Source: Gemmatimonadaceae bacterium (GTDB lineage: Bacteria; Gemmatimonadota; Gemmatimonadetes; Gemmatimonadales; Gemmatimonadaceae). From it: a stretch of DNA of 47,818 nucleotides. Positions 1,625 through 47,818 of this stretch are shown piece by piece (within the stretch, counting starts at the first letter, position 1; every line of letters begins with the position of its first letter). Made by a program: the position numbers and the translations under genes. Under the pieces are notes generated by a model. It ran no database searches, was not told the DNA's origin, and saw only the letters and a list, made by a program, of their open reading frames with translations. Where the stretch lies: the NCBI GenBank assembly GCA_013817305.1, contig JACDCY010000009.1, positions 1 through 47,818 of the forward strand, in the 5' to 3' direction.

Positions 1625-2836
1625 TTGCCCCAATTCTGGTACGAAGCCCTGACCTCGACCGGCCGGGTTGAGACCGCAACGATGGCGGCAACGAACGAAG
1701 AGGACCTCGCCGATCGTCTCCGGGAGAATGGGAGCTTCCTTGTGCGCAGCCGCCCCGCCGAGAAGCCGGCGCCGCCGAAGAAAACCGACGGGAAGATCGA
1801 GAAGAAGCATCTGCTCGCGCTGCTCGAGTACATGGCCGGCTCGGCCCAGGTCGGCATGCCCATCATGACCACGCTGTCGGACGTAGAGCCGCGCCTCGAG
1901 TCCAAGAAGCTGCGGGCGATCGTCGCAGAAATGCGGGACACGATGTCGCTGGAAGGAAAGAGCCTGTCGGAGGCGATGGCCGAGCACCCGAAGTGCTTCG
2001 GCGCGTTCTACGTCAGCACGATCGAAGCCGGCGAGGCCAGCGGCCAGCTCGACTACGTGCTCGCCCAGCTCGTGAAGCACCTCGACTGGCAGCAGGCGAT
2101 CGGCTCGCAGATCAAGCAGGCCACGCTGTACCCGATCATCATCATCGTCGCGATCACAGGCCTCCTGCTCGTGCTCGTGGGGTTCGTCTTTCCGCGGCTC
2201 ATACCGGTACTGACCCAGCGCGGCGCGGAGCTCCCTATGGCGACGCGCGCCGTGATCGCCGCGTCGGAGCTAATCCGCGGCTACTGGATAGCGGGCGTCG
2301 CGCTGGTGGTCGCGTCCGCACTCATCGTCGTGATCGCCCGGAGAAATCCCGACACCCGGGCGAAGATCGACGGGTTGCTGCTGCGGATCCCCGTGTTCGG
2401 CGAGCTGATCTCGCAGGTCAACATGGCGCGGCTCGTCACGTACCTGGCGCTGTTTTACCGTACAGGCGTAGAGATCGTGTACTCGCTGCAGCTGTCGGAG
2501 CGATTGGTCGGCAACCGCGCCGTAGCCGGCGCGGTTGCCGGTGTGCGGGAGGCGATCATCGGAGGCGAGTCCCTGGGCACCGCCTTCGCCGCAAATCCGC
2601 TGTTCCCGCCGATGGTCGTGCGGAGCATCTCGCTGGGAGAGGTGACCGGACACCTGGACGATGCCCTGACCCGGGCGTCGGTCTATTACGAGCGCGAGAT
2701 ACCTGCCGCGGTCCGCAGAATGGTGACGGTGCTGCAGCCCATGCTGATCGCGGTCATGGGCGGCGCCGTTCTGCTGGTAGCGCTGGCGATCATCCTGCCG
2801 ATTCTCGGCATCTACGACTCTATCGGGCGCAGATGA
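1625..2836 (+). CDS. gspF: GspF/PilC/MshG-type inner-membrane platform protein
   Basis: Polytopic inner-membrane platform protein that couples the assembly ATPase to pilin polymerisation. At 403 residues it has the usual family length. The start is TTG at 1625; no ATG lies near it and the N-terminal MPQFWYEAL matches the usual family opening (YxY/F-x-A). Two repeated T2SSF domains occupy about residues 65-185 and 265-390. Hydrophobic segments lie near residues 175-198, 215-235 and 375-397. The second domain carries the usual GTGVEI- and MVVRSISLGE-like stretches. It follows the ATPase gene by 10 bases and overlaps the next gene by 4 bases (ATGA), so the genes are translationally coupled. Confidence 0.96.
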   Translation: MPQFWYEALTSTGRVETATMAATNEEDLADRLRENGSFLVRSRPAEKPAPPKKTDGKIEKKHLLALLEYMAGSAQVGMPIMTTLSDVEPRLESKKLRAIVAEMRDTMSLEGKSLSEAMAEHPKCFGAFYVSTIEAGEASGQLDYVLAQLVKHLDWQQAIGSQIKQATLYPIIIIVAITGLLLVLVGFVFPRLIPVLTQRGAELPMATRAVIAASELIRGYWIAGVALVVASALIVVIARRNPDTRAKIDGLLLRIPVFGELISQVNMARLVTYLALFYRTGVEIVYSLQLSERLVGNRAVAGAVAGVREAIIGGESLGTAFAANPLFPPMVVRSISLGEVTGHLDDALTRASVYYEREIPAAVRRMVTVLQPMLIAVMGGAVLLVALAIILPILGIYDSIGRR

Positions 2837-4344
2837 GCAAGTCGTCGTCCCGGCGATTCGGCGCCCTCATAGATCCCGACCGCATCTACGTCATCGAGTA
2901 TCTTCGCCAGGCCGGCGGCGTCGAGATCACCCACCACTTGAGCGTCGCCCGTAGCATGCCGAGCGTCGAGGAGGCGAGCGACGCGCTCGTGGAGCTGATG
3001 CGACCGTCGGTGGGTCGTGGCGTCGCGCAGCTCACCGCGGCCATTCGCGGGTTCGGCATTTCATACGAGCTCCTGACGCTGCCCCCGGCCGGCGCAGAGT
3101 TGCTCGCGCCGATCATCGACCGGGAGATGCGCAGGCTCTATCCCGACATCGAGGATCCGTTAGTCGGGTTCGCGCTGGGCGGAAACATCGATCGCCGCAC
3201 GGGGAAGCCGGCGCCGGTAACGGCAAAGAAAGGACTGCCGGAGCGGCGCAGCTCCGGAGCGACCGGCGAAATCCTCCCGCTCGAGGTACTAGCTGCTGCC
3301 GCGCCGCGCCATGTGGTGGACACAGTCGCGAGTACGCTGGAGCGTGCTGGCATCCGGCTGGACCATCTCACCGTGGTGCCGCAGGCCATGGCCCGGCTGT
3401 ACCGCGAGGTCAACGGCTCGCCGGATCCGGCGGCGCTCGCGATCATGCTGCAGGGATCGCCCATCATCGGAGTATTCCAGGGCGGAGACGTGCGCTTCAT
3501 TTCCGAGCCTCCGCCCTCGGATGAAGGAACGTCGTCGGCCGACGTTCAGACGGTAATCGACCAGGTCGGACGCGCGCGCATCTACCTGCGGCAGCATTTT
3601 CGCGGTGCAGACATCGGGCGGATTTTCGTTTCTGCGGACCCCGCCGACCAGGCGCACGTGGACGCCGTGCTCAACGCCGCTCTCAACGTCGAGGTGATCC
3701 CCCTCGCTCCGGCCATGGGACCGCCAGCCGCGATCGCCGCGCTTGGTAGCGTCCTCAATGCGGAATCCGGCAGCGAGATGGTGCTGTACCCGTCGCCGCA
3801 GGATCTGCAGCTCGCCGCGGAAAGGAACAGGTTGCGGACGTGGACGATCGGAGCCGCGGCGATCTGCGCGCTGGCGATCCTCGTGGCCGTATTCACGACG
3901 ATCGCGGCCTGGACGGCGGCGGACGAGCTAAAGGCGGAGCGTGCGGCAGCGGATGCTCAAATGGCGAGGATTTCGCCGGCGATGGACGTTATCGGAGAGC
4001 GGCGCGCGAACATGGAGCGCGTGAGCGCGGCGCAGAATCATTACGCCGGGCGGCAGCAGCTCGCGCGGCTGATAAACGGAATCCGGCTGGCGCAGCCGGT
4101 GAATGTGGGCTTGAAGTCGGCGACACTCACGCGCACGGACGGCGGATGGCGCGTCGACATCGAGGGGACGTCCGTAGGAGCCACGGGCGCCGACGTGCTC
4201 GAGGGAGTGGCTGATTTCTCGCGCGAACTGCCCGCAAGAGTTCCGCTCCAGGGTTTCAATCTCGACTCATTCGCATACGCCGGCGAGGGCGACGACATGT
4301 CGGGGAACTTCAAAGTCAGCTTCACTACCACCGGCGCGCAATGA
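2833..4344 (+). CDS. PilM-PilN-like (GspL/MshI-type) assembly protein
   Basis: Component of the inner-membrane alignment complex of a type IV pilus or T2SS. The first ~325 residues look like an actin-fold PilM/GspL cytoplasmic domain. One transmembrane segment lies at about residues 335-358 (WTIGAAAICALAILVAVF), followed by a ~140-residue periplasmic part with a coiled-coil-like stretch and a PilN/GspL-type ferredoxin-like domain. Separate PilM and PilN proteins are the rule in many pili; here they are one 503-residue chain, as in GspL and MshI-like proteins. I chose ATG 2833 because it overlaps the gspF stop by 4 bases; an open extension upstream to 1993 is only gspF read in another frame. 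It overlaps the next gene by ATGA. Sequence similarity is weak in this family, so the assignment also rests on gene order. Confidence 0.85.
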   Translation: MSKSSSRRFGALIDPDRIYVIEYLRQAGGVEITHHLSVARSMPSVEEASDALVELMRPSVGRGVAQLTAAIRGFGISYELLTLPPAGAELLAPIIDREMRRLYPDIEDPLVGFALGGNIDRRTGKPAPVTAKKGLPERRSSGATGEILPLEVLAAAAPRHVVDTVASTLERAGIRLDHLTVVPQAMARLYREVNGSPDPAALAIMLQGSPIIGVFQGGDVRFISEPPPSDEGTSSADVQTVIDQVGRARIYLRQHFRGADIGRIFVSADPADQAHVDAVLNAALNVEVIPLAPAMGPPAAIAALGSVLNAESGSEMVLYPSPQDLQLAAERNRLRTWTIGAAAICALAILVAVFTTIAAWTAADELKAERAAADAQMARISPAMDVIGERRANMERVSAAQNHYAGRQQLARLINGIRLAQPVNVGLKSATLTRTDGGWRVDIEGTSVGATGADVLEGVADFSRELPARVPLQGFNLDSFAYAGEGDDMSGNFKVSFTTTGAQ

Positions 4345-42004: not shown

Positions 42005-43534
42005 CTAGTTCACTTCTGCATCGAACGCTCCCGTAACCACGCTGCCATTCCGCTTCACCTGCACCCAGATCCGGTAGTTGCCCGCGCTGGGAAAGGCGTA
42101 GGGAAAGGACACGAAATTTCCCATGGTCATTCCCGCGTGCGCGGCAGACGCGGCGGAATCCGTCGCGGTCACGCGGCGAGACAGTGTGCCCGCCACGGTG
42201 TCTGAAGCACTACGCAGATCAAAGCTGCGCTTCGCCGCCATCGGGACGGTGCCCGATGGATGCAAATGGATGAATACAGATCGATCATCACGCATCACGA
42301 CTGCGTGCGCAGCCATCCCCATGTAGGGCTCCAGCGCGACCGGACTTCCCGTGAGATCGGTCACGGTAAACCGCAGGCGCGCCGGAGCGCCGGCAACGAG
42401 CTGCGCGCTGCCGCGATCCCATCTGATCATCGTCTCCCGGTCGGACGACGCAGCGCTCGTAACAGGCACCACGCTCACATGCCACGAATCATCGCCGCGC
42501 GAGCCCGAGCTCGGCTCGGCCGTCCGAGCCGGGAGCGGGAGCGGCGAGGTCAGAGTTTGAGCGAAGCCGCTCTCGTGAACCACGTCGCCATAGACGTGAT
42601 ACGCTCCACCCGGTAGCGGCGGCCGCCATGCGCTGAAACGCACGGTGTCCGACGTGGACGGGTGCAGGTGCGCGAATGCACGCAGATCGTCGCTGATTAC
42701 GAACATGTGCATCAGCTTGCCGTGGTCCGGTATCATCGGCGTGTACCCGGACCGTCGCGATCCCGGCCCATGCGCTTCGTTTCTGCTGGCGACCCATCCG
42801 CTGTCGGTTATTCGCAGGTCGATCGCGTTCGGCGCAGCGGAGTCGTCGACGCTCGCGACCGCCGTCATCGGCCGGAAGATCGAGCGGCGATAAGAAGCAT
42901 CTTCCGCTTTCCACCATAGCCTCCCGCCCACAATCGCCGACGCAAGCACGACTGAGGCGATTGCCATGGCGAGCCTGCCGCGCTTGCGACGCGCGGCATC
43001 GACCGTGGCGCCCGGCGCGAGCGACGCCTCGCTGGCCGCAGCGCCGGCGATGCTGACGATGCCGGCAAAAAGAACCAGCCCGACCAGAGCCAGAGCCACG
43101 GCGAAAGGGCCGTCGAGAGCGAGCCGCCGATAGGCGACGAACGCTGCCGGGACGACAACGCTCCCGGATCCCTTCGCGCCCGCGACGTTGATCTTCACGC
43201 TGTTCGATCCGCCGGACATCACCCACAGCGAGACCGTGTGGAGCTCAGGGTCTCCCTGCACGGGACCAGCGGCCTCGGGGGGAGGCGGCGTGCCCGCGGC
43301 GTCGAATTTGTTTACGCTGGCCGAGACCGCGACGGGCGGAGTTTCCTGCGCCGATTCGTAGACTCGAACCGAAATGTCGGTGACAGCGGGGATCACGCCG
43401 GGAGACCTGACGTGCACGAGCACGCGGTACGGTCCCGCACTTCCCTCGAACCAGGTGTCGGGACTACCGATGTGGGCAGCCCCGACCACGATGAATCCGA
43501 CGGCCATGAGCGCGCGCAACGCAACGCGCCTCAT
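42005..43534 (-). CDS. Membrane protein with two His-rich HxxV-DD-F-HLHP domains
   Basis: A 509-residue protein of unknown family. A signal or first membrane segment (residues ~5-22), an Ig-like beta-rich domain, and two more membrane segments (~140-160 and ~190-210) are followed by two extracytoplasmic beta domains. Each carries the same motif: H-x2-V-x2-DD-x3-F-x-HLHPS, near residues 273-290 (HMFVISDDLRAFAHLHPS) and 415-432 (HAVVMRDDRSVFIHLHPS). Clustered His and nearby Met suggest metal, possibly copper, binding; this is inference. ATG 43534 overlaps the upstream stop by 4 bases (ATGA), so it forms a module with the gene at 43531-44691. The frame is open to 43813 but that is the upstream gene in another frame. 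Confidence 0.75.
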   Translation of the reverse strand: MRRVALRALMAVGFIVVGAAHIGSPDTWFEGSAGPYRVLVHVRSPGVIPAVTDISVRVYESAQETPPVAVSASVNKFDAAGTPPPPEAAGPVQGDPELHTVSLWVMSGGSNSVKINVAGAKGSGSVVVPAAFVAYRRLALDGPFAVALALVGLVLFAGIVSIAGAAASEASLAPGATVDAARRKRGRLAMAIASVVLASAIVGGRLWWKAEDASYRRSIFRPMTAVASVDDSAAPNAIDLRITDSGWVASRNEAHGPGSRRSGYTPMIPDHGKLMHMFVISDDLRAFAHLHPSTSDTVRFSAWRPPLPGGAYHVYGDVVHESGFAQTLTSPLPLPARTAEPSSGSRGDDSWHVSVVPVTSAASSDRETMIRWDRGSAQLVAGAPARLRFTVTDLTGSPVALEPYMGMAAHAVVMRDDRSVFIHLHPSGTVPMAAKRSFDLRSASDTVAGTLSRRVTATDSAASAAHAGMTMGNFVSFPYAFPSAGNYRIWVQVKRNGSVVTGAFDAEVN

Positions 43535-44691
43535 CGCTGTACCCGCGCCATGACTTTTCCGGCCCAGAGACCCAGCCTGCTGGAAATCGTCGCCGCCAGA
43601 AAGGTCCACAGCAGCGCGAGCGTGAAGGCAGCGGCGGGCACGGTGTTCCAGTACTCGTAGCGCCACGGTCCGAGCCGCTCCGTGTAATCCCATTGATCGG
43701 CGGCAAAGAACCAGTTGCGCGCGGCGGGCGACATCAGGAAGCTCGACCAGTACCAGTGCACCGCGAGCATCGCGAGGACGAAGCCGACTCCGATCAGCGG
43801 AGCCAGCAGCCAATCATTGACGCGCCTGGCTCGCGGAAGCGCGAGATCGAGCAGAATCGCCGGAATGATCAGCAGCAGCGGGAATGGAGCCGGCACCATG
43901 TGCGTCACCGCGTTGTAGATAGGCGCCAGAAGGGGCGTTGCAGGGACTAGCTGCAGCACCCAGATGATCACGAGCTGAATCGCCGTGTATATCGCGGCCA
44001 CGGTCGTTGCCGGGAATCGCAGCCGGCTCGCGCGAGCCGCGCTCAGCAGCGCAATCGGGATGACGATGGCGACCATGCGATAGAACATCGGAGACCGCAT
44101 GTCGTTCGCGATGCCCGCGTCTTCCATTATCACCGTGGCCATCATCGTAAGCAGGATGCCGGCGCTCGCCGCGTAGATGGACCTGAGGCGCCGGTCGTGG
44201 CCTACGCGGTTCTGTGCCGCGACCGCCATGACCATCGCTCCCACCTGGATCGCGATCATCCCCCACGCCAGCACCATGTGAGGGGGGCTGATGATCTTGA
44301 CGTCCAGTCCGTATGCGTTGTGCCACCAGTTGTCGAAGGGCGCCGACGCGATCATCATCGCCGTTCCCCAGATGCAGATCCAGGCGCCCAGTGGCCCGTA
44401 GAATCCCCACACCCGCACGCCGCCCTGCTTCGCCGCCGGATCTCCGCCAAAAGTCGCTCGGAGCACGAGCCAGCCGCAGCTCAGTCCCGCGACGATCGCA
44501 GCCAGCTGCTCGAGCACGTGGGGAGGACTCCAGAAAGTGTCCCGGCCGATTGTGCGATGCCACGAGATGTCCCAGATGAGGCCGACTACGATCGCCGCCG
44601 ACGCAAAGAGCGTCGCGTAGAGCGGCCAATACGCGACCTCGCCCGTTTGCGGCAGCTGGCTGTCGGCGATCGGCAGAGCTGTGGCAGCCAT
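43531..44691 (-). CDS. Multi-spanning membrane protein with duplicated DxxWH...SPPH motif
   Basis: A 386-residue protein with about nine membrane helices and no family I recognise. Two copies of a motif D-x2-WH-x3-G-x-D-x3/4-SPPH lie near residues 40-57 (DISWH...SPPH) and 120-140 (DNWWH...SPPH), each just before a membrane helix. This implies an internal duplication. The conserved His pairs could bind metal or haem near the membrane surface. ATG 44691 is chosen because AAAGGGA stands shortly before it; the frame is open to 45072 but that part would overlap the divergent peroxiredoxin gene. It is first in a two-gene unit with the HLHP-motif protein. Confidence 0.8.
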   Translation of the reverse strand: MAATALPIADSQLPQTGEVAYWPLYATLFASAAIVVGLIWDISWHRTIGRDTFWSPPHVLEQLAAIVAGLSCGWLVLRATFGGDPAAKQGGVRVWGFYGPLGAWICIWGTAMMIASAPFDNWWHNAYGLDVKIISPPHMVLAWGMIAIQVGAMVMAVAAQNRVGHDRRLRSIYAASAGILLTMMATVIMEDAGIANDMRSPMFYRMVAIVIPIALLSAARASRLRFPATTVAAIYTAIQLVIIWVLQLVPATPLLAPIYNAVTHMVPAPFPLLLIIPAILLDLALPRARRVNDWLLAPLIGVGFVLAMLAVHWYWSSFLMSPAARNWFFAADQWDYTERLGPWRYEYWNTVPAAAFTLALLWTFLAATISSRLGLWAGKVMARVQR

Positions 44692-44816
44692 TGAGTTCCC
44701 TTTCGGAGGTGGGCAAAAAATAGCATGCCCGGCCCGAGCCGGCTGCGAGATAAGCGCTCTGGCCGACGGGAGCGCTGCCCCGTAGTATTTGATTGTCGCA
44801 TTATCGGAGACCCCGC

Positions 44817-45452
44817 ATGCGCGAGCGCTTGAACCGAAGCAGACTGCCCCTGTTCGCAGCCGCGTCCACGATGCTCGCGTGCGCTCCAACGACGGGGCCA
44901 GCGCAGCAGCCGCCAGCTTCGCCTCCTGCCGCGGCGGCTCCCGCTCCGCGTCCGGGGCCAACGATCGGATCGGTCGCGCCTGACTTTTCACTCCCGGCCG
45001 CGACCAGGTACGGCAGGATGAGCGACCAGTTCCGGCTCTCGCAATTCCGCGGACAGACCATAGTGCTCGCATTCTTCAGCCAAGCTCGAACTCGCGGCTG
45101 AACCATTCAAATGGAGGCGTACCGTGATCAGTACGCCACGATCTTCAACAACGGCCGCGGAATCGTCCTGGTCGGAATCAGTGCTGACGCCGACACGACG
45201 CTCGAAGCCTGGGCTCGCGAGAAATCGTTTCCCATGCTGTTCGCCAGCGACACCGGCGGGCTCGTCGGATCGCTGTACGGGGCCTATGACCCCGCGCGCC
45301 GGATAGAGGACCGTTCGCTGTACGTGATCGATCCAGCGGGGAAGGTCGCGTACACCGCGCGTCCGTTCCGCGCTCTCTCGGCGGCGTCATACAAGGAGCT
45401 GGAGGACGCGCTGGACCGAATCGCGCCCCTCCCCGCCGATACTACGAACTAG
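44817..45452 (+). CDS. Lipoprotein peroxiredoxin-like selenoprotein (TGA-encoded Sec95)
   Basis: A 211-residue AhpC/TSA-type thioredoxin-fold protein, read through an in-frame TGA at 45099-45101. Residues 1-20 form a lipoprotein signal with the lipobox MLAC, then a Pro/Ala linker. The fold opens with GSVAPDFSLPA (~residue 58), LSQFRGQTIVLAFFS, and the active site ARTRG-U-TIQMEAYRDQY, where U (residue 95) is where peroxiredoxins have the peroxidatic Cys after a T-x-G. Both halves are in one frame and complete one domain. No other Cys occurs in the mature part beyond the lipidated one. A hairpin at 45116-45137 fits a bSECIS. ATG 44817 has GGAGA 8 bases upstream. The alternative is a nonsense mutation or sequencing error of a Cys codon. 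Confidence 0.83.
45099..45137 (+). promoter_or_regulatory. Putative bSECIS element after the in-frame TGA
   Basis: A perfect 7-bp stem GGCGTAC (45116-45122) / GTACGCC (45131-45137) encloses the loop CGTGATCA. Its first G (45124) is 22 bases after the TGA, within the spacing usual for bacterial selenocysteine insertion elements, which carry a conserved G in a small apical loop. Folding was done by eye. Confidence 0.65.
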
Positions 45453-45455
45453 CGG

Positions 45456-45944
45456 TTACAGCGCCTTGCGCACGGCGGCGACGAGGTCCTGATCGCCGCC
45501 GACTCCGGTGTATACGATTCTGCCGCGCCGGTCCAGAACGACCACGTACGAAGTTGCAGGCACGTTGAACCGGTCCACGGCCTCGCCGGTCGCGTCATAC
45601 AGCACCGGATGGGTGAACTTGTGCGCAGCCGAATACCGGCGAACCCGCTCGAGTGATTCGTTTGCCGACACGGCCACTGCCACGAAGTTGACGCGCGAGC
45701 CATACAGCCGTTGCGCGCGTTGGAACGAGGGCATCAGCTCGCGGCAGGTCGAGCACCACGCCGCCCAGAACTGGATGAGGACTGGTCCCTTCCCCACGTA
45801 TCGCGAGAGGGAGACCGTGCTACCATCCAGTGCCTGAACCGCAGCGACGGGCGCGATCGATCCTACGGGGAGCCCGAAATCCTGCGCGCGCGCGCTGGCA
45901 GCAGCGGCGCAGACGGCGAACGCGAGAATGAGAGTCTTTTTCAC
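45456..45944 (-). CDS. TlpA/ResA-like periplasmic thioredoxin
   Basis: A 162-residue secreted thioredoxin-fold protein. A Sec signal covers residues 1-20 (ASARAQ). The redox site WCSTC has Cys64 and Cys67. A cis-Pro in VPATS follows near residue 129. TlpA-type proteins take electrons from CcdA/DsbD and reduce periplasmic targets. The gene lies 37 bases downstream of the ccdA-like gene on the same strand, and is convergent with the peroxiredoxin-like gene (3 bases between stops). It could reduce the selenoprotein. Confidence 0.93.
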   Translation of the reverse strand: MKKTLILAFAVCAAAASARAQDFGLPVGSIAPVAAVQALDGSTVSLSRYVGKGPVLIQFWAAWCSTCRELMPSFQRAQRLYGSRVNFVAVAVSANESLERVRRYSAAHKFTHPVLYDATGEAVDRFNVPATSYVVVLDRRGRIVYTGVGGDQDLVAAVRKAL

Positions 45945-45981: not shown

Positions 45982-46698
45982 TCAGATGAGAAGCCGGCCC
46001 ATCTGTATCAGATAATACTCCGCAACGCCCAGCATGATCACCGCGAACGCCCGCTTGACCCATATCATCCAGGCGCCGGCCCTCGGCAGGCGCACCGCGT
46101 GCCCGCTCGAAAGCCCCACCACAATCAGCAGCGCGCACATGCCCAGCGAGAACGCGAAAAGATAGACGAACCCCAGCCCCCCGCTCCGCGTGACACCGAC
46201 CCAGGTGAGCACCGCCGCCATGACCGGCGCAGAGCACGGCGCCGCGACCAGTCCGGACGCGGCACCCATCCCGAACGCGGCGGGATAGCGGCCGCTCCCC
46301 CCGACCCCGGCAGCGCGGGCAATCAGCGACCTCGGGATCGGCAGAGGCACCACGTCCAGCATCAGCAGCGCGGCATACACGAGCAGGTTCGCCATGGCAA
46401 AGTACAGCCATGGATTGGTGCTGATGGAGCCGAACAGCGAGCCCGTCAGTCCCGCGATCGTACCCAAGCCTGCGTATACGAGAGCGAGCCCAATGACGTA
46501 TGCGAACGTCAGGCCCGCAGCAGTGAGGCGGGATGTAGGCGCTCCGCTCACGGAGCTGCCGCCGACGATCGCAGCGGTGATGGGGATCATCGGGTACACG
46601 CACGGCGTGAGGCTGGTCATCACGCCCGCGAAGAAAAGCAGCGGAATGGCAAAAGCCGGATTGGTAGAGAGCTGCGCAGCTATCGCCGAGACATCCAT
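45982..46698 (-). CDS. ccdA: CcdA/DsbD-type transmembrane electron transporter
   Basis: A 238-residue protein with six or more membrane helices. The two redox cysteines lie in SLTPCVYPM (~residue 34) and VAAPCSAPV (~155), the pattern of CcdA and the central domain of DsbD. It carries electrons from cytoplasmic thioredoxin to periplasmic thioredoxin-like proteins; the linked TlpA-like gene is the obvious acceptor. ATG 46698 gives a typical short N-terminus; the frame is open to 46770 without support. It is divergent from the sensory-type gene by 65 bases. Confidence 0.93.
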   Translation of the reverse strand: MDVSAIAAQLSTNPAFAIPLLFFAGVMTSLTPCVYPMIPITAAIVGGSSVSGAPTSRLTAAGLTFAYVIGLALVYAGLGTIAGLTGSLFGSISTNPWLYFAMANLLVYAALLMLDVVPLPIPRSLIARAAGVGGSGRYPAAFGMGAASGLVAAPCSAPVMAAVLTWVGVTRSGGLGFVYLFAFSLGMCALLIVVGLSSGHAVRLPRAGAWMIWVKRAFAVIMLGVAEYYLIQMGRLLI

Positions 46699-46763
46699 GC
46701 TCGATAATACTTCCCAGCCCGCGGGAATGGACCGTAATCGGCTAAACCCCTTACCTTGTGCGC

Positions 46764-47489
46764 ATGGCATCCAATCTTGCTGGGTTCGGCCTGCCCGAGC
46801 GCCTCCGGTGCAGCTCGGGGGTGAGAGCGGCCTGCGAGGGCACGCAATCCGTTGAAGAGGCCGCTCAGAGCCTCTGTGAGTTTTTCTACGACGAGCTCAT
46901 CGACCCGGAGGGGAAACGGGCCTGCGCGCTGGTCAGATTCTACGTCACGCAGCCCTTCGCGCGATTGCCGCGCGAGCTGAAGGAGTTCGCGCGATCGGCC
47001 GCAGGCGGGCTTCCCATCGGCGAAGAAAGTCGCTGCCTGACGCTGCTCGCAACGGTCGGCGACGAGCGAGAATGGAATTCACGCTTTGAATCGAGAGGGC
47101 ATCAAGCCATCCCTCTCCTGAACGCGGAGATGGTCGAGAAAGCTCCGATGATCGCCGAGCTGCTGAAGGCGTTTGGACTCAACACGAAAGACGTGGTTGG
47201 AAATCTCGGGCCTATCGTCCCCGATCTTGGCGGTAAGTCTTACGGCGTTTTCTACGTTCCGGACGCGAAAGGCAGCGAGTACATCCCCGCGCAGACCGAT
47301 TTCGTGGTGCCGCATGGAATCAAATCGGTCGTGGGATGCGGCAGCGCGCTGTCATCGGGCGAGCTGTTCGCGATGATCATCTTCGCCAAAATCCCTGTGA
47401 CTGCCGAGTCGGCGGATCGCTTCCGCCCGCTGGCCCTGGACGCGAAGGCTTCACTGCTGCGTTTTTCCGCCGACGATATTTTCGAGTAG
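46764..47489 (+). CDS. Stand-alone sensory-type protein of unknown function
   Basis: A 241-residue soluble protein. The stretches ALVRFYVTQPFARLP, CLTLLATVGDEREWNSR, SRGHQAIPLLN and YIPAQTDFVVPHGIKSVVGCG resemble, as I recall it, an uncharacterised domain found at the N-terminus of some bacterial PAS histidine kinases. Here no kinase or PAS domain follows. It has no signal peptide or membrane segment, and several His/Cys residues could bind a cofactor, but nothing proves it. ATG 46764 and GTG 46758 are both possible starts. Family recall is from memory and not checked. Confidence 0.7.
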   Translation: MASNLAGFGLPERLRCSSGVRAACEGTQSVEEAAQSLCEFFYDELIDPEGKRACALVRFYVTQPFARLPRELKEFARSAAGGLPIGEESRCLTLLATVGDEREWNSRFESRGHQAIPLLNAEMVEKAPMIAELLKAFGLNTKDVVGNLGPIVPDLGGKSYGVFYVPDAKGSEYIPAQTDFVVPHGIKSVVGCGSALSSGELFAMIIFAKIPVTAESADRFRPLALDAKASLLRFSADDIFE

Positions 47490-47492
47490 CGA

Positions 47493-47818
47493 TCAGCCGT
47501 TTCGCTTCTCCGTATCGAGCAGCGTTTTTTTGCGCTCGATGCCGAAGCCGTAACCGCCGAGCGAGCCGTCGTTGCGCACCACCCGGTGGCATGGGATCGC
47601 CAGGGCGACGGGGTTGGTAGCGCACGCTCTGGCCACCGCACGCGCCGCGTGAGGTGCCCCGATCGACTCCGCGACTTCGCTGTACGAGCGTGTCTCGCCG
47701 TAGGGGATCTGCTTGAGCGCGCGCCACACGCGCAGCTGAAACGCAGTCGCCCGTATGTCGAGCGGCAGCTCGATCTCCGGCCGGTCGCCCGTGACGTGTT
47801 CGAGCATCGCCGCCGCGA
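47493..47818 (-). CDS. O6-alkylguanine-DNA alkyltransferase domain (5' end cut by window edge)
   Basis: The visible 107 C-terminal residues hold the whole catalytic core of an Ogt/Ada alkyltransferase: the DNA-binding wing FQLRVWRALKQIPYGET, SYSEVAESIG, and the acceptor Cys in IPCHRVV. The Cys takes alkyl groups from O6-alkylguanine in a suicide reaction. The frame is open through the window edge, so the N-terminus, and whether this is Ogt alone or an Ada-type fusion with an AraC regulator, cannot be seen. The LPLDIRATAF opening is more like Ada proteins. Confidence 0.93.
   Translation of the reverse strand, partial: AAAMLEHVTGDRPEIELPLDIRATAFQLRVWRALKQIPYGETRSYSEVAESIGAPHAARAVARACATNPVALAIPCHRVVRNDGSLGGYGFGIERKKTLLDTEKRNG

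Follow-up and report, generated by a model that had tools for sequence, protein, structure and literature searches.

An in-frame TGA in a Gemmatimonadota gene almost certainly specifies the active-site selenocysteine of an exported peroxiredoxin

Selenocysteine (Sec)-containing peroxiredoxins with a TxxU motif are an established family (PMC9312934, PMC13188914, PMC1088965). PrxU of Eubacterium acidaminophilum (NCBIfam NF040737) combines a PF00578 domain with a peroxidatic Sec and a Thr three residues before it (PMC9312934, PMC13188914), three features that it shares with the protein described here. A PF00578 domain and a Sec are also common to this protein, the UxxC Prx-like thiol:disulfide oxidoreductase selenoproteins and the UGC Prx-like selenoproteins (PMC9312934). 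Published limits for the bSECIS hairpin are an apical loop of 3-9 nt with a G at loop position 1 or 2, a stem of 4-16 bp, a loop located 16-37 nt after the UGA and a minimum free energy (MFE) of at most -7.5 (PMC13188914). Here, we analysed a 47,818-nucleotide stretch of DNA (the window) from a Gemmatimonadaceae bacterium, in which one gene has an in-frame stop codon that, as judged from comparative sequence analysis, almost certainly stands for the active-site Sec of an exported enzyme that destroys peroxides.

The gene occupies positions 44817-45452 of the forward strand; GGAG precedes its ATG at a normal distance and a TAG ends it. The initial annotation had joined two same-frame segments across a single TGA and had placed this codon at the peroxidatic Cys position of an AhpC/TSA-like protein, with no other Cys in the mature chain, and our analysis agrees on each point. 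Residues 50-179 of the joined 211-residue protein match Pfam AhpC-TSA (E 1.7e-24, 86.6 bits for a curated cut-off of 26), and its AlphaFold model has a mean pLDDT of 89.8, with the residue encoded by the TGA (45099-45101), residue 95, starting helix 93-104. The nearest solved folds found by Foldseek are peroxiredoxins, 1-Cys AhpE among them. The sole Cys of the protein is Cys22, at a possible lipobox, and since the mature domain holds no other, the enzyme should act as a 1-Sec peroxiredoxin. The signal peptide (44817-44882, forward strand) carries this possible lipobox (TMLA-C22) by a PROSITE-type pattern. The same pattern is found only in the 4 proteins of the genus of the window and is absent from the other 135 proteins examined, which have ordinary signal peptides of the AxA-Q type; the lipoprotein status proposed in the initial annotation is thus possible for this genus only. 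A signal peptidase I site is a possible alternative in the window protein, and all members, judged by eye from their N-termini, appear exported.

We followed the peroxidatic column over 160 homologous loci of Gemmatimonadota, collected by searching genome contigs and whole genomes of the family and the phylum. The codon is TGA in 113 loci, TGC in 43 and TGT in 4, so that Cys is the only alternative to TGA; as the loci were taken largely from matches known to contain TGA, it is the absence of a third residue that counts, and the ratio of TGA to Cys is no census. The TGA form is present in at least five families, and the Sec form is widespread in the phylum, with the cysteine form instead in several lineages. 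Independent assemblies of relatives keep the TGA, which is therefore genuine and not a read error. Within the genus, the codons 3' of the TGA, computed without the hairpin region, show dN of 0.09-0.15 and dS of 0.70-0.97 (dN/dS 0.09-0.19), that is, purifying selection, indicating that the part downstream of the TGA is translated and selected.

The 7-bp hairpin that had been put forward as a bSECIS lies at 45116-45137 on the forward strand, where GGCGUAC (45116-45122) pairs with GUACGCC (45131-45137) around the loop CGUGAUCA (45123-45130). It falls within the published limits, with an 8-nt loop, a G at loop position 2, an apical loop that begins 21 nt after the TGA and an MFE of -11.8 kcal/mol. 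All seven pairs form in 97 of 100 distinct TGA genes, as against 2 of 38 distinct Cys genes. The outer pair covaries: it is GC in 75 of the TGA genes, CG in 13, UA in 9 and AU in 1, and hence complementary in 98 of the 100 (shuffles: mean 59.7, maximum 72). Synonymous sites are frozen in the TGA genes only; the codons TAC CGT GAT CAG TAC are almost invariant there, whereas Cys genes freely use TAT, CGC, GAC and others. Across the window, 1.5% of TGA triplets are followed by a comparable 7-bp hairpin, so the hairpin alone is weak evidence and the argument is carried by its conservation in relatives, which is far beyond chance. Fold energy is not significant for the 60-nt stretch alone (z -0.85); it is significant for the 42-nt element (z -3.07), owing partly to a small CCAU/AUGG stem that is absent in relatives. 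Rfam and tRNA scans of the window returned no matches.

The machinery that the initial annotation had proposed to look for is complete: the genome of the window encodes tRNA-Sec (selC; 68.6 bits, cut-off 47), selA (555.9 bits), selB (340.7 bits) and selD (369.6 bits). The selD gene (L033; contig C126 of this genome, G000, 2062-2985, reverse strand) adjoins the tRNA-Sec gene and itself has an in-frame TGA at the catalytic position (RCAGUASK), followed by a hairpin-like GGUCC-AGG-GGACC. Of the genomes in the family for which matches were listed, 101 carry a TGA copy, and tRNA-Sec and/or selA were found in 99 of these; the corresponding figure for genomes that have nothing but Cys copies is 3 of 31 (Fisher p 5e-23, with kinship not corrected for; selA was looked for only in TGA genomes lacking tRNA-Sec and in most Cys-only genomes). 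Neither tRNA-Sec nor selA turned up in G081 or G124, two incomplete genomes that carry TGA copies. Seven genomes (G001, G008, G009, G014, G073, G156 and G173) have tRNA-Sec and no TGA copy among the matches listed; other selenoproteins may maintain the Sec trait there. In the genus of the window, molybdopterin genes of the formate dehydrogenase type contain no in-frame TGA.

Two readings of the TGA other than Sec were weighed against these results. A young pseudogene, in which a nonsense mutation or a sequencing error had interrupted a former Cys gene, would likewise show a single in-frame stop, but it would hardly recur in several families of the phylum, at 113 of the 160 loci, nor would selection continue 3' of the codon and the hairpin be kept; we consider this origin extremely improbable. 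The frame is also open with TGA read as any residue, as would follow from a code 4/25-type reassignment or from near-cognate read-through. Against this, 10 of the 20 large ORFs selected from the window end in TGA, Cys is the sole alternative at the column, and tRNA-Sec, selA, selB and selD are all present, leaving decoding as another residue with a negligible probability. Column conservation, downstream selection and the use of TGA as a normal stop in the window thus led us to reject both.

The best protein tree (built with the site masked) requires at least nine exchanges between Cys and Sec, four of them on well-supported branches. Several genera have tandem Cys and TGA copies, in the same orientation and about 550-620 bases apart (L038, L039, L042, L044, L049-L052, L054 and L060); two tandem TGA copies are found at L096, and two tandem Cys copies at L047, L048, L063, L064 and L144. 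None of 139 proteins has a further Cys downstream of the site or within 50 residues upstream of it. Within the PxxxTxx[C/U] motif, the window protein has the T at -3 and the Sec, and the Pro at -7 is replaced by Ser88 (45078-45080). All 38 distinct Cys genes retain this Pro, as against 39 of 100 distinct Sec genes; most Sec members have F, Y, I, V or S in its place, and no Cys member examined does. A test of the association between Sec and Pro loss on independent pairs had too few pairs for proof.

Downstream of the gene and convergent with it lies a ResA/TlpA-like exported thioredoxin with a WCSTC motif (45456-45944, reverse strand; Pfam Redoxin 1.7e-20), a candidate reductant, and next to it a CcdA-like protein with a DsbD transmembrane domain (45982-46770, reverse strand; Pfam DsbD_TM 2.5e-44), a candidate transmembrane electron carrier. 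The adjacency of these two genes is kept in relatives within the genus. A convergent thioredoxin-like gene follows 26 of 95 TGA copies and none of 38 Cys copies (Fisher p 6e-5, with kinship not corrected for and most flanks about 500 bases long). No such gene was found in the short flank examined for most of the family, which makes the identity of the reductant a guess; our best candidate for the electron donor is the TlpA-like WCSTC protein. On the other side of the gene, an apparent membrane protein gene without a Pfam match occupies 43531-44694 (reverse strand), and the listed ORF 43814-44716 (reverse strand), which appears to be in the wrong reading frame, was discarded. A small protein encoded at 47493-47807 (reverse strand) matches in Pfam only DNA_binding_1, the DNA-binding domain of 6-O-methylguanine DNA methyltransferase.

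We propose that SelB and tRNA-Sec decode the UGA at 45099-45101, guided by the hairpin, as its conservation suggests. Outside the cytoplasmic membrane, the selenolate, positioned where helix 93-104 begins, would then attack and reduce H2O2 or organic hydroperoxides. Since the enzyme has no resolving Cys, reduction of the selenenic acid would call for an outside thiol, most likely, to judge from the neighbourhood, that of the ResA/TlpA-like neighbour, recharged by the DsbD-type protein. The thioredoxin-like and DsbD-type genes nearby, together with the replacement of the active-site Pro in many Sec members (by F, Y, I, V or S), could instead point to a Sec protein that serves mainly in thiol-disulfide exchange or as a sensor. 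The T at -3 and Arg166 are, however, conserved as in peroxiredoxins, there is neither a CxxC nor a second Cys, and the nearest folds are peroxiredoxins, so that we find a non-peroxidase role unlikely. An exported Sec peroxiredoxin, decoded by SelB and tRNA-Sec and reduced by an external thiol, is as a whole very probably the correct explanation, and the selection after the TGA, the SECIS-like conservation, the Sec machinery and the peroxiredoxin fold computed here all support it.

In a very large number of Gemmatimonadota genomes, gene calling that takes TGA as a stop would break this enzyme into two pieces. Its recognition brings selenium chemistry to the cell envelope of this phylum, and the abundance of Cys and Sec versions, some of them paired in tandem within a single genome, provides a natural test of what a peroxiredoxin gains from Sec. 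The chances seem to us evenly balanced that these proteins constitute a subfamily of exported 1-Sec peroxiredoxins that spans the phylum and is new to the literature, with Sec tied to the loss of the Pro and to a dedicated TlpA/DsbD electron path, Cys and Sec repeatedly exchanged, and tandem copies possibly acting as selenium-dependent alternates.

A search of the literature outside subscription journals and preprints returned no study of Gemmatimonad selenoproteins and no description of this protein. Compared with the systems already described, AhpE, a 1-Cys peroxiredoxin of Mycobacterium tuberculosis (1xvw, 1xxu), resembles the window protein in its fold (TM-score 0.86 on target) and its single peroxidatic chalcogen, but it uses Cys, is not described as a selenoprotein and is only 24% identical. 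The BCP/PrxQ thiol peroxidase model (PRK09437) is, besides PrxU, among the closest general peroxiredoxin models; the window protein scores below its cut-off and, unlike BCP/PrxQ, lacks a resolving Cys at +5. The motifs of the UxxC and UGC Prx-like selenoproteins are both absent from it. Against the PrxU model itself it reaches 54.3 bits, far from the cut-off of 270, and it differs from PrxU in being exported, in having Ser for Pro in PxxxTxxU and in a mature domain without other Cys. Because of the failed PrxU model and the missing Pro, we file it as a variant of the Sec-peroxiredoxins: an exported subfamily that falls below the PrxU cut-off, often has another residue in place of the Pro and looks like an undescribed branch of this established family.
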